The notes beneath the pieces were generated by a model. The model ran no database searches, was not told the DNA's origin, and was given only the letters and a program-made list of their open reading frames with translations. From positions 1 through 23,281 of IMG/VR virus record IMGVR_UViG_3300009550_000067: 23,281 nucleotides of DNA. One strand, 5' to 3'. The stretch comes from a virus. The number at the start of each line of letters is the position of its first letter. Within the stretch, counting starts at the first letter, position 1. This document shows positions 17,617 to 21,658 of the stretch, in pieces. A program made the position numbers and the translations under genes.

Positions 17617-17787
17617 ATGATTAAGAACCTTGCAACACAAGTATCATCTGGATTAAATCTTAATCAAGTAGGATTTTCTCTAATTTTTACAAGTCCGAAT
17701 CCTCAAGTACTTGGTAATTCTCAATTACAAGAGTATTATACAAAAAAATGTACCTATGATGCAACTATATTTTATACTTTATCCTAG
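17617..17787 (+). CDS. Possible small plus-strand gene convergent with the tape measure
   Basis: This 56-codon frame starts MIKNLATQVSSGLNLNQVGF and ends TYDATIFYTLS. It has AT-rich third positions like the genes around it, unlike the sequence just upstream. No ribosome-binding sequence is visible before the ATG and no family is recognised. Its last 9 bases overlap the tape-measure stop region on the other strand. A promoter-like pair on the minus strand lies inside it, so it may instead be leader DNA for the noncoding RNA or the remnant of a longer gene. Confidence 0.28.
   Translation: MIKNLATQVSSGLNLNQVGFSLIFTSPNPQVLGNSQLQEYYTKKCTYDATIFYTLS
17735..17764 (-). promoter_or_regulatory. Possible sigma-70-type promoter for the noncoding RNA
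   Basis: The minus strand has TTGCAT (17759-17764), an 18-base spacer and a perfect TATAAT (17735-17740). It points into the noncoding region and lies just after the tape-measure stop codon. The -35 match is weak (three of six). Confidence 0.3.
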
Positions 17788-19725
17788 ACTTGGATAGTGA
17801 AGTGCAGAATGTTTACCATTTGAACCACCACCAGTGGCTGCAAATTGAGTTCTTCTGACATTTGTGACATTTGATACTGGAGAAGCTTGTACTGCAACAA
17901 CATTATTTCCACTAGAACTATCTGTATTAGTAGGTGCTACATTAACAGGTATAGGGCCACCAGAATTAAAGTTGAATGATACATTTTCTAAGTTTTTAAC
18001 TGAATCTGTGATGTCTTCAAAGAAACCTACTTGGTCTGAATCTAAGTTATCCATTGCAGATGTTATTTCTTTAAGACCTTTTCCAGCAAGAGACATTTGG
18101 TCTCCAATACCTTCACTGAAATTGATACTCATAAGTTGTTCTAATTTACTAACACCATCTATTCCAAAGAATCCACCAATTAAATCAGTAAATTTTACAC
18201 TTGGCAATTTAAATCCATCCATTGCCTCTTTTGTTCCTTGTATATTTTCAAGTGCCATGTCCATGTCACCAGACATATTATTAATGAATCTAGCAAGTAT
18301 ATCTAATTGATTTTCATTACCTACGAGTTGATTGAAGTCAAACTTACCAGAAACACCTATCTCTGCAATTTTTTTGAATTCTTCTGATATTGAAGCGATA
18401 CCTCTAATATTCCTTTGTAAGCCTGGAATATTTAATTGTTCGAAAGGCATTATACTCTCTGCAAAACTACCTAATCCTTTACCAACTACAACTAAAGTGC
18501 CAATTAAACCCATTATTGCAAGAGCACCAGCACCCATAATCAATGCACCGATACCAGTAGAAACAATTCCACCGAGAACTCCCATCAAAGTTGCAAGTCC
18601 TAACATACTACCAAGAACTTTGAGCATGTTTACCTTACCAAACTTTTGCATTCCATCAAATGCACCCATTTTTTCACCAAGTGCAAATGAACCAAAGACA
18701 GCAGTCAAACCAATTGCAAGTGCAGCTCCACCTACAACTAATGCTTTACCTAATGCAAATGAGGCTTTACCAAACAAGGTCATACCTTTTGCAGCTGCAA
18801 TCATACCAGCACCAGCTGCACCACCAATTGTAGATGCAGTTGTTAAGAATATGGATGCAGATATAAATCTATTTGGGCCACTACCACCTTCCTCACCAGA
18901 CTCAGCTGGTTCTGGTTGACCATCATTTGCAAGACTACCAGAAACCATTCCAGATTTCATTTGTTGTCTCTTCATTTGTTCATCATTTTTAAGACTAGCT
19001 CTTTGGAAGAATTTAGTTTGTTTCCTATCTGCTAATCTATCTTGAATTTGTCTTTTACCAAATGCAACTATATTAAGAAATATTGACCCAACAACTCTAC
19101 CAAGAGTACCAAGAATTGTACCTAAGAATGGTATTTGTTGAATGACACCGACAATAGGGCCAAAGAAAGATAAAGTTTTATCAAAATCTGAAGCAATTGA
19201 ACTCTTAAGAGTATCAAATTGACCTGCGAAAGTTAATGAACCACCTTCTTCTATTTTAGCAAATTGTTTTTTTACAAAACCACCGAAAGTAACATCAGCA
19301 AACTTAGCAAACCCTTTCTCGAAACCAGTTAAAGTTCTACCAAACTTCATCATTTCTTCGAGTTGTGTTTTCTCTAATTCTAATCTTTCTACTTCTGGAT
19401 TATCTTTAATATTTTGACCAGTCTCTTCTAAGACTTCTTTAACTTTATCGAGTCTTTCCTTATTAAGTTCTAGTTGTCCTTTAAGACCTGCCAACTGTCT
19501 TGCTTGTTCTTTACCAATTCCAACTTGTTCTAATATGGCAGACCTTTCAAAACTTTTAGTTTGTTCGTCTGTTAATCCTTCAATACCTTTAGCCATTTCC
19601 TTTTGCACTTCTAAATTGTCTTGTAGACCTTTAGTAGTTTTTGCAGTACTTCTTCTTAGTACAGTAAGTGCTTTATTGATAAGCTTTTCAGCTTCGGTAT
19701 TTGTTAAATTGTTCTCGTCTGACAT
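17779..19725 (-). CDS. gp29: Tape measure protein, gp29 type
   Basis: This 648-residue protein has the layout of tape measures, which fill the tube during assembly and set tail length. Residues 1-150 are charged, Glu/Lys-rich coiled coil (for example LELEKTQLEEMMKFGRTL near 113). Residues 190-240 contain a hydrophobic segment. Residues 280-430 are a long Gly/Ala-rich hydrophobic region with repeated GGAAGAGMIAA- and LGGIVSTGIGALIMGAG-like stretches, typical of the membrane-interacting part. The C-terminal 200 residues are helical, then Asn/Ser/Gly-rich. Length is near T4 gp29 (590 aa). It follows gp26 and the membrane protein gene, matching the usual order of tube, chaperone and tape measure. 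A near-late-promoter GATAAATA lies 6 bases before the ATG, too close to be convincing. Confidence 0.8.
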   Translation of the reverse strand: MSDENNLTNTEAEKLINKALTVLRRSTAKTTKGLQDNLEVQKEMAKGIEGLTDEQTKSFERSAILEQVGIGKEQARQLAGLKGQLELNKERLDKVKEVLEETGQNIKDNPEVERLELEKTQLEEMMKFGRTLTGFEKGFAKFADVTFGGFVKKQFAKIEEGGSLTFAGQFDTLKSSIASDFDKTLSFFGPIVGVIQQIPFLGTILGTLGRVVGSIFLNIVAFGKRQIQDRLADRKQTKFFQRASLKNDEQMKRQQMKSGMVSGSLANDGQPEPAESGEEGGSGPNRFISASIFLTTASTIGGAAGAGMIAAAKGMTLFGKASFALGKALVVGGAALAIGLTAVFGSFALGEKMGAFDGMQKFGKVNMLKVLGSMLGLATLMGVLGGIVSTGIGALIMGAGALAIMGLIGTLVVVGKGLGSFAESIMPFEQLNIPGLQRNIRGIASISEEFKKIAEIGVSGKFDFNQLVGNENQLDILARFINNMSGDMDMALENIQGTKEAMDGFKLPSVKFTDLIGGFFGIDGVSKLEQLMSINFSEGIGDQMSLAGKGLKEITSAMDNLDSDQVGFFEDITDSVKNLENVSFNFNSGGPIPVNVAPTNTDSSSGNNVVAVQASPVSNVTNVRRTQFAATGGGSNGKHSALHYPSLG

Positions 19726-19737
19726 AGTAGTATTTAT

Positions 19738-20118
19738 CTATTTTTTTGCATTAGTGTCATGTTCTTTTGCAGCGGAGTTGACATATAGTCCAAACCATGC
19801 AGCTCCAGCACCTACCAGAATACTGATAAGACCAGATTGTTCCATTGAAGGTTCTGGTAATTCCATGAACCAAATGGCTGCATAATACACTAAGAATATG
19901 TAAACACTTAAGAATGCACGAGGCCAGATTCTCCATGCATCAACTGTTCTTGCAAGGTGAACCCACTTTTGCCAAGGGTTTACTGTGTCATTTGCTTTAA
20001 GGTCTCTAATTTCATCCTTAAGGGCACCATTCTCTTGAATCATCTCCATGAACTTTGATAAGTCCATTTCGACTTCGTTACGCGACATATCGCCACCAAA
20101 TCTTTCTCTATCACTCAT
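19738..20118 (-). CDS. Two-helix membrane protein, possible holin
   Basis: This 126-residue protein has a charged N-terminal helix (about 14-45, coiled-coil-like: LSKFMEMIQENGALKDEIRD). An amphipathic WQKWVHL region follows, then two membrane helices: about residues 67-86 (AFLSVYIFLVYYAAIWFMEL) and 93-112 (SGLISILVGAGAAWFGLYVN). They are separated by a short acidic, proline-containing loop (PEPSME). The C-terminus is a short charged tail ending DTNAKK. The WRIWPRAFLS entry to the first helix and the compact loop resemble small phage holin-like proteins. That assignment is inference; the position between the tail chaperone and the tape measure could equally mean a tail-assembly role. A clear AGGAGAG precedes the ATG by 4 bases. 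Confidence 0.55.
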   Translation of the reverse strand: MSDRERFGGDMSRNEVEMDLSKFMEMIQENGALKDEIRDLKANDTVNPWQKWVHLARTVDAWRIWPRAFLSVYIFLVYYAAIWFMELPEPSMEQSGLISILVGAGAAWFGLYVNSAAKEHDTNAKK

Positions 20119-20130
20119 AATACTCTCCTA

Positions 20131-20316
20131 TTAATTTTGAGCCTGTTTTCTTTTCAACTCCTCATCTTCAAGGAATTGAACTAGTAGAGAGACATATATC
20201 TCCCTTTCCCAAGGATGCATACCATCCAATTCTTCTAATGACCAATTATGATGTTGTATTAGACCAAAGTTTGTATTGATATAGTTTGCGAGTGTTTCAT
20301 GAGAAAGGGCTAGACG
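20131..20316 (-). CDS. -1 frameshift extension of gp26 (61 codons)
   Basis: This frame has no ATG, GTG or TTG in its first 30 codons and is preceded by an in-frame TAA at the end of gp26, so it cannot be translated on its own in the usual way. It joins gp26 in the -1 frame at T_TTT_TTC. The peptide reads RLALSHETLANYINTNFGL, then WSLEELDGMHPWEREIYV, and ends in a charged helix with EDEELKRKQAQN. Short, charged helical extensions with a W..E..MxxxERE pattern are typical of the T part of tail chaperones. A shifted product would have about 299 residues (238 plus 61). Confidence 0.72.
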   Translation of the reverse strand, partial: RLALSHETLANYINTNFGLIQHHNWSLEELDGMHPWEREIYVSLLVQFLEDEELKRKQAQN

Positions 20317-21029
20317 AAAAAATTCTGGATTCCTTCTAATCTTACCTTATTTTCTGTATTACATTTAACACAATTATATTCAACTTCTTTAACTAACTTT
20401 GGAAGGTCATTAAACCACTCCATCATATGAGTAAATTGTTCTGTAGACATTTCATTAAGAAAGACACTAAGTTCTTTTGATGTGACATCATTTCTTTTAA
20501 TCACATCATCTATAGTAATGATTTCTCTAACAGACATTTCTAGGACATCAAAGATATTAGAAGTAGTTATATTATCGATATCTTGTATCATACCTTGTAC
20601 TTCACTAAAGTTAGGAACTGAAAGTCTAATCGATACTTCATCTGTTAACTTGACAATATCAGATTTTACTTCACCCTCAACACCAACACTTAATAAGTCA
20701 ATGTCTACTGGTGTTTGTCCATCACATTCACTGTTACATCCTAGAACAATTCTACTTGTTTCACCTACAGATTTAATACGAACTTGTAAAAACAAGTACT
20801 CTAAATCTGTATTTGATAACTCCCTTACAGTCATTGTTGAATCTGGTAGTCCACAACATGATTCTACTAGATTTATGACTGTATGAGTTATCGTTTTTAC
20901 CTTGTCTTCTTCAAGAGCCTGTAACAATACCTTCTGTTCACCTACTGTGAATGGTCGATATTTAGCCTCTATTCCAGAGACAGGTAATTTACAAAAATAC
21001 TCTACAGTATTTAATTTAGGTAATGCCAT
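20310..21029 (-). CDS. gp26: Baseplate hub / tail assembly protein gp26
   Basis: This 239-residue protein fits the T4 gp26 family (T4_baseplate; T4, 208 aa), which assists hub assembly. It begins MALPKLNTVEYFCKLP and continues YRPFTVGEQKVLLQALEEDK near residue 24, the recognisable start of marine gp26 proteins. Four cysteines form two knuckles (Cys98-x3-Cys102 and Cys220-x2-Cys223), which look like a zinc ribbon. The middle is helical and acidic. The gene lies between a tube-fold gene and the tape measure, the position of the G chaperone in other long-tailed phages. A TAGGAG ribosome-binding sequence precedes the ATG. Its last codons contain the slippery heptamer for the -1 extension, so two products are expected. 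Confidence 0.82.
   Translation of the reverse strand: MALPKLNTVEYFCKLPVSGIEAKYRPFTVGEQKVLLQALEEDKVKTITHTVINLVESCCGLPDSTMTVRELSNTDLEYLFLQVRIKSVGETSRIVLGCNSECDGQTPVDIDLLSVGVEGEVKSDIVKLTDEVSIRLSVPNFSEVQGMIQDIDNITTSNIFDVLEMSVREIITIDDVIKRNDVTSKELSVFLNEMSTEQFTHMMEWFNDLPKLVKEVEYNCVKCNTENKVRLEGIQNFFV
20316..20322 (-). promoter_or_regulatory. Slippery heptamer T_TTT_TTC for -1 frameshifting
   Basis: In the gp26 frame the last codons are AAT TTT TTC GTC TAG. The heptamer T TTT TTC allows both tRNAs to re-pair with TTT TTT after a -1 slip, and the next codon becomes CGT of the extension frame. It sits one codon before the gp26 stop. The related heptamer T_TTT_TTG is used in the E/E' gene of phage P2. 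Confidence 0.72.
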
Positions 21030-21046
21030 AATATACTCCTATATGT

Positions 21047-21658
21047 TTAACCATAGATTGCGTCTTCAATCTTACCTTTTAAATTATTTGTTACTTTACC
21101 TAAAGCCTTATCTAAAAATCCTGTGAATAGATTAGAAGGCTTCCGATTATTAAATTCACTATACCAATATCTATAACGAAACTGTGCATTAAACTTCATA
21201 ATATCTACATTTTCGTATCCTACAGTTACAGCACCAAGTTGTAATGGAAATGCATCTGTCATAACACATCGATAATTAACATTATCATGTTTATCTAACA
21301 TTTCTAGATATATCAGACCAATGTAATCATCATGAAATCTGCTATGGAAGTTACCAGTATGAAGACCATTTATTGATTGTTGCCACATTTCTATGAGTTC
21401 TCTATCTTCAAAGTCATTTGTCATATAAAATGAACAGTCAAATTGGTCATACTGTGGTTTATGTGGGATTGCTCTTTTAGGGCCATACTCCGATTCTTCT
21501 TGAGTAAAGAATCCTCTGCCTGGCAAGTTTGCACTTTCACACTTTAAACCTCTTACTGCAAGACCATTGTTAAGGTTACCCATACCAAACATTGCAACAT
21601 TATATCGATTGTTTCTTTGTAAACCATCTATTTGTGCTTTAAATCTGTCTATCTTCAT
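21047..21658 (-). CDS. gp54: Tail-tube-fold protein, probably tube initiator gp54 type
   Basis: This 203-residue protein has the tube fold shared by gp19, gp48 and gp54. It shows RNNRYNVAMFGMG near residue 15, KCESANLPGRGFFTQEES near 39, FDCSFYMTNDFEDRELIEMW near 73 (strand then the central helix), and a final strand with FNAQFRYRYWYSEF near 154. The C-terminal 30 residues form a separate amphipathic helix. gp54 begins tube polymerisation on the baseplate. The genomic place directly before gp26 and the tape measure fits a tube or tube-initiator gene. gp19 usually sits with the sheath and portal genes, so gp54 is preferred, though it is shorter than T4 gp54 (320 aa). Its start overlaps the stop of the 194-aa gene (ATGA). 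Confidence 0.62.
   Translation of the reverse strand: MKIDRFKAQIDGLQRNNRYNVAMFGMGNLNNGLAVRGLKCESANLPGRGFFTQEESEYGPKRAIPHKPQYDQFDCSFYMTNDFEDRELIEMWQQSINGLHTGNFHSRFHDDYIGLIYLEMLDKHDNVNYRCVMTDAFPLQLGAVTVGYENVDIMKFNAQFRYRYWYSEFNNRKPSNLFTGFLDKALGKVTNNLKGKIEDAIYG

Follow-up and report, generated by a model that had tools for sequence, protein, structure and literature searches.

Does gp26 of this T4-like phage end in a programmed -1 frameshift that yields a short and a long tail assembly chaperone (TAC) from one gene, in the manner of lambda G and GT? The question is posed by a 23,281-nt stretch of viral DNA, referred to here as the window, in which a gp26 homologue on the minus strand ends with a slippery heptamer and is continued in the -1 frame by a conserved extension. 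We consider it very probable (about 93%) that a -1 frameshift on T_TTT_TTC makes a G/GT-type pair consisting of gp26 itself (TAC-N) and a longer product (TAC-NC), which would act on the tape measure. What we obtained here, and present below, is the gene architecture with its conservation and the selection acting on it, the homology with both gp26 and gp51 of T4, and the prediction of a TAC-like fold.

The gp26 gene and its -1 extension

The features at the junction, all on the minus strand, are the following.

20310..21029, minus strand: gp26 homologue, TAC-N (the short tail assembly chaperone form), 239 aa (PF12322, phrog_150)
20331..20336, minus strand: GAAGGA, resembling a Shine-Dalgarno sequence, 8 nt ahead of the heptamer; possible 5' stimulator
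20316..20322, minus strand: slippery heptamer T_TTT_TTC, read as X_XXY_YYZ in the 0 frame, with a single sense codon between it and the gp26 stop (sequence, conservation, synonymous constraint)
20310..20312, minus strand: 0-frame gp26 stop TAG, one codon past the heptamer, position kept in most relatives
20131..20316, minus strand: -1 frame extension, putative TAC-C domain, 61 codons plus TAA, homologue of the T4 gp51 C-terminus (phrog_634, phrog_150, dN/dS)

The gp26 homologue is recognized by PF12322 (E 1.2e-44, 153 bits against a curated cut-off of 24.5, residues 11-238) and, in a profile search, by phrog_150 (E 2.4e-46); the profile match with T4 gp26 has an E value of 8.6e-18. Its 3' end reads GAA GGA ATC CAG AAT TTT TTC GTC TAG on the minus strand, with 13 nt from T_TTT_TTC to the end of the gene, exactly as the initial annotation had described it. 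The -1 frame also proved to be as described there: it runs from an arginine codon (CGT, 20316) over 61 codons to the TAA at 20133-20131, the nearest in-frame stop upstream lies about 10 codons before the junction, and the first ATG, GTG or TTG is a TTG at codon 30, followed by an ATG at codon 33. Joined to gp26, the extension gives a TAC-NC of 299 aa with the junction ...QNFF-RLALSHE...

The extension was matched by phrog_634, the T4 gp51 family labelled 'baseplate hub assembly catalyst', with an E value of 7.6e-25, and on the 282 positions of phrog_150 the gp26 of the window covers 5-232 and the extension 236-276. The earlier proposal that the extension is the T-type part of a chaperone, for which a comparison with chaperone families had been suggested, is thus upheld in that a chaperone-related C-domain is predicted, and needs correcting in that this domain is a homologue of gp51. 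When the phage's own 23-kb record, a fragment, was searched for this domain, the sole match was at 20131-20328 (E 6.6e-28), and no second gp51-type copy was found in this fragment. Unlike T4, with its stand-alone gp51 that has a gp26-like N-domain of its own, the window encodes the C-domain only, in the -1 frame. A Pfam search with the extension yielded nothing above chance, and the extension alone is predicted to be all-helical.

Note that the heptamer alone is weak evidence, because 26 heptamers of the X_XXY_YYZ type stand in frame among the 6,517 codons of the window's main genes. TTTTTTC occurs seven times in the window against about 10 expected. Only the heptamer in gp26, among those 26, has a -1 continuation longer than 22 aa. 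It is conservation that carries the frameshift reading.

Three neighbouring genes, again on the minus strand, are relevant to the function proposed.

21047..21658, minus strand: tail-tube-fold gene just upstream (phrog_45 tail tube E 3e-31, phrog_3629 E 8.1e-19)
19738..20118, minus strand: 126-aa protein, next gene downstream (phrog_10198 E 6.7e-21)
17779..19725, minus strand: candidate tape-measure protein, 648 aa (position and composition)

Of the placement of gp26 between a tube-fold gene and a gp29-type gene, as initially annotated, the upstream half holds, whereas downstream the 126-aa gene intervenes and the 648-aa gene is a candidate tape measure by position. Family searches gave no match for the 648-aa protein, and BLAST comparison with its positional counterparts in Mosig and Cr30 detected no similarity. 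The 126-aa protein is probably membrane-spanning, judged by its hydrophobic stretches, and shares 44% identity over 73 aa with its positional counterpart in pelagiphage Mosig. Its gene has an in-frame A_AAA_AAA 10 nt from the end, where the -1 continuation amounts to 17 aa only.

Conservation of the junction and selection on the extension

Relatives were assembled in two sets. Searching with the extension yielded 71 viral contigs, while the second set was drawn by N-terminal gp26 motifs only and comprises 79 loci with a complete gp26. In the extension-anchored set T_TTT_TTC or T_TTT_TTA stands at the junction in 71/71 contigs, and the gp26 stop follows one codon past the heptamer in 70 of them. 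All 79 loci of the second set have T_TTT_TTC (47), T_TTT_TTT (29) or T_TTT_TTA (3) near the stop and then the extension, which runs off the contig end in two cases. The same site is present in 13 named phages, i.e., S-PM2, Syn1, S-T4, Mosig, Melnitz, Cr30, phi-ST2, OLIVR5, Atu_ph04, PX29, PhiW-14, Milchi and Yut3. These range from the Kyanoviridae (cyanophages, pelagiphage Mosig, Melnitz) to phages of Vibrio (phi-ST2), Aeromonas (PX29), Caulobacter (Cr30), Agrobacterium (two phages), Delftia (PhiW-14), Pseudomonas (Milchi) and Stenotrophomonas (Yut3).

Codon choice at the junction is equally uniform. In 48/48 non-redundant loci the codon before FF ends in T, though it specifies different residues (N, D, S, G). 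Of the two Phe codons that follow, the first is TTT, likewise in 48/48. The joint probability of this choice is about 10^-19, a naive value that uses each gene's own codon use and is uncorrected for shared descent. Internal stops are absent from the -1 frame of the extension in all 48 loci, against 2-7 stops in each of the other two frames. In the close clade, differences in the extension are concentrated at third codon positions and dN/dS is about 0.17, compared with 0.28 for gp26. Judged by these alignments, strong purifying selection acts on the -1 frame of the extension. The heptamer and the extension frame are kept across marine T4-like phages and beyond, and within the window's clade there is neither a start codon with ribosome-binding site for the extension, nor a locus without the heptamer, nor frame decay, any of which would have spoken against the initial annotation.

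A lone metagenomic contig could in principle carry a sequencing or assembly indel that splits one continuous gene, or the frame could have decayed, with no programmed event involved. No result points to an indel here, and the same junction recurs throughout both contig sets (71/71 and 79/79) as well as in genomes of cultured phages, with purifying selection downstream. Conservation refutes this explanation, and we regard its probability as practically nil.

A further possibility is that the extension is a small gene in its own right, gp51, whose translation begins at a start of its own or resumes by reinitiation past the gp26 stop. Public records such as those of S-PM2, Mosig and Syn1 do annotate a separate gp51 ORF, and in Cr30, phi-ST2, Atu_ph04, PhiW-14 and Yut3 the stop of gp26 and an ATG share bases (TGATG or TAATG), so that these phages could make a free C-domain in addition, by reinitiation. 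However, conservation starts at codon 1 of the extension, whereas its first start in the window, at codon 30, lies inside the conserved domain. Throughout the close clade the first start of the extension usually falls at codon index 26-32, the annotated gp51 starts in Mosig and Syn1 remove conserved residues, and a separate gene would leave the invariant heptamer without a reason. We therefore consider a separate gp51 gene very unlikely.

The T run itself could, finally, act on RNA polymerase instead of on the ribosome. Runs of eight Ts, found in 19 of 125 relatives, could also allow transcriptional slippage, but 94 of the 125 loci, including that of the window, have six Ts, and the run always stands in the T_TTT_TTx codon phase, as tandem tRNA slippage requires. 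With six Ts and an invariant phase, slippage of the polymerase is unlikely in the window, and that it takes the place of ribosomal slippage altogether appears very improbable.

Proposed mechanism, possible stimulators and the predicted fold of gp26

In the programmed ribosomal frameshift that we favour, most ribosomes would terminate at TAG, which yields gp26 (TAC-N). A smaller share would slip by -1 on T_TTT_TTC, where the two Phe-decoding tRNAs would re-pair in tandem (TTT to TTT and TTC to TTT), and would read 61 more codons to produce the 299-aa TAC-NC beside abundant gp26. By analogy with lambda G/GT, the role of TAC-N would be to coat the tape measure, and that of the TAC-C part to recruit tube subunits. 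That the frameshift occurs, its rate and the binding partners are what we infer. The initial view of gp26 as a G-type chaperone with a programmed -1 frameshift is supported, at the level of sequence and prediction, by conservation, selection, the gp51 match and the TAC-like fold.

As a 5' stimulator, the Shine-Dalgarno-like GAAGGA found no support beyond what the amino-acid sequence imposes. It is stronger than most segments along gp26, yet no better than synonymous shuffles, and because the shuffles do as well, its strength is explained by the conserved residues E-G. Downstream of the heptamer in the window no stem is predicted (z -0.13), and none is present in the window's clade. Over 111 loci, a helix of at least 8 bp within 54 nt downstream was found in 39%, compared with 11% in a control stretch, and almost no compensatory changes were seen in the lineages that have such helices. 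Lineage-specific hairpins lie 5-10 nt downstream of the heptamer in S-PM2 (L088), in loci L171, L148 and L183 and in relatives. In S-PM2 (L088:3711-3760) a 14-bp hairpin is located just past the heptamer and overlaps the annotated gp51 ATG. It is possible that these lineage-specific hairpins are frameshift stimulators.

The structural model of gp26 has a mean pLDDT of 86. The best PDB neighbours of its residues 2-97 are HK97 gp13 (Z 7.5, with the resemblance extending over residues 2-89), YqbN (Z 6.9) and Rbstp2171 (Z 6.6), all of which are phage tail assembly chaperones (PMC9603447). They are followed by a PICI protein of unknown function (Z 4.8) and then by unrelated folds at Z 2.4 or less. 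The gp26 N-domain is predicted to have a TAC-like fold; the match is modest, with moderate scores (Z below 8), and covers about residues 2-97. While this predicted TAC-N fold would be common to gp26 and the three chaperones, gp26 differs from them by an extra region, residues ~90-239, which no PDB entry matches clearly: the search with the whole gp26 model listed no fold match above Z 2.4 for it.

T4 genes 26 and 51 and other chaperone systems

The T4 genes 26 and 51 belong to the same family as those of the window, gp26 corresponding to TAC-N and the C-domain of gp51 to TAC-C. In T4, however, gene 51 is separate, without a frameshift, whereas the window has the frameshift form. Genes 26 and 51 of T4 are encoded on opposite strands. 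In profile matches T4 gp51 spans phrog_150 positions 13-280 and T4 gp26 positions 14-235, a coverage by which T4 gp51 consists of a gp26-like domain plus the same C-domain, i.e., a TAC-NC made from a separate gene. A single BLASTP comparison of T4 gp26 with T4 gp51 gave an E value of 2e-6. When the marine gp26 profile was aligned by HHalign with the single T4 gp51 sequence, the match was short and weak only; the PHROG profile gave a clear relation between gp26 and gp51 where this single-sequence comparison did not.

With lambda gpG/gpGT the locus shares a chaperone gene in the neighbourhood of a tube gene and a tape-measure gene (in the window a candidate one), an in-frame heptamer near the 3' end and a -1 extension without its own start. 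The likeness is one of architecture; the lambda heptamer is G_GGA_AAG and that of the window T_TTT_TTC. PMC12846349 describes a TAC locus in Vandenendeviridae and Andersonviridae where, as proposed here, a -1 frameshift takes place on a poly-T slip site (GTTTTT); the C-part of that locus is annotated as a separate hypothetical gene. The phage families and the motif are different ones.

The heptamer is absent in Ackermannviridae (0507-KN2-1, CBA120, LIMEstone1) and in Vibrio phage D533, where a related C-domain in the -1 frame still follows directly after gp26 (L096:3260-3480; L184:1270-1450; L185:1040-1230; L098:3110-3340). The C-domain of KN2-1 matches phrog_9633 ('unknown function') and phrog_634; the match for D533 is weaker. 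In D533 and LIMEstone1 stop and start overlap as TAATG, and the C-domain may therefore be expressed there by a different route. One may tentatively envisage three or more routes to the long chaperone in T4-like phages, namely T_TTT_TTx frameshifting, a gene both duplicated and fused, as for T4 gp51, and, in Ackermannviridae and D533, a heptamer-less -1-frame C-domain reached via weak slippage or stop-start reinitiation, although we think this scheme rather doubtful as it stands. Within it, T_TTT_TTx frameshifting would be the widespread and perhaps the ancestral state. As a separate observation, gp26 of LIMEstone1 (L185:273-1079) is annotated as a confirmed structural protein, which is unexpected for a chaperone absent from the virion. 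Cyanophage records annotate the gp51 extension from an internal start that cuts conserved residues (e.g., L089:3058-3192, L102:2558-2689 and L101:2555-2689), and in the Atu_ph04 record (L094) it is unannotated.

Vladimirov and co-workers are said to have found in 2022 that frameshifting is kept in several T4-like groups, with genes 26 and 51 in T4. Such a finding agrees with all results presented here. The initial annotation knew of no description of such frameshifting for T4-type gp26, but it has already been reported: PMC10885494 and PMC12846349 cite Vladimirov, Gautam & Davidson 2022 (Virology 566:9-15) for T4-like chaperone genes, the former for separate short and long chaperone genes in some T4-like phages and the latter for poly-T slip sites in T4-like TAC-N genes. 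A 2016 review treats T4 as the exception to the G/GT rule (PMC5009743). The idea of a frameshifted chaperone in T4-like phages is thus not new, and the window is a well-supported further example. Its meaning is that gp26 and the small 'gp51' ORF of marine T4-like phages would be one gene with two products, while many public genomes list gp51 separately, with a start that removes conserved residues, or omit it.
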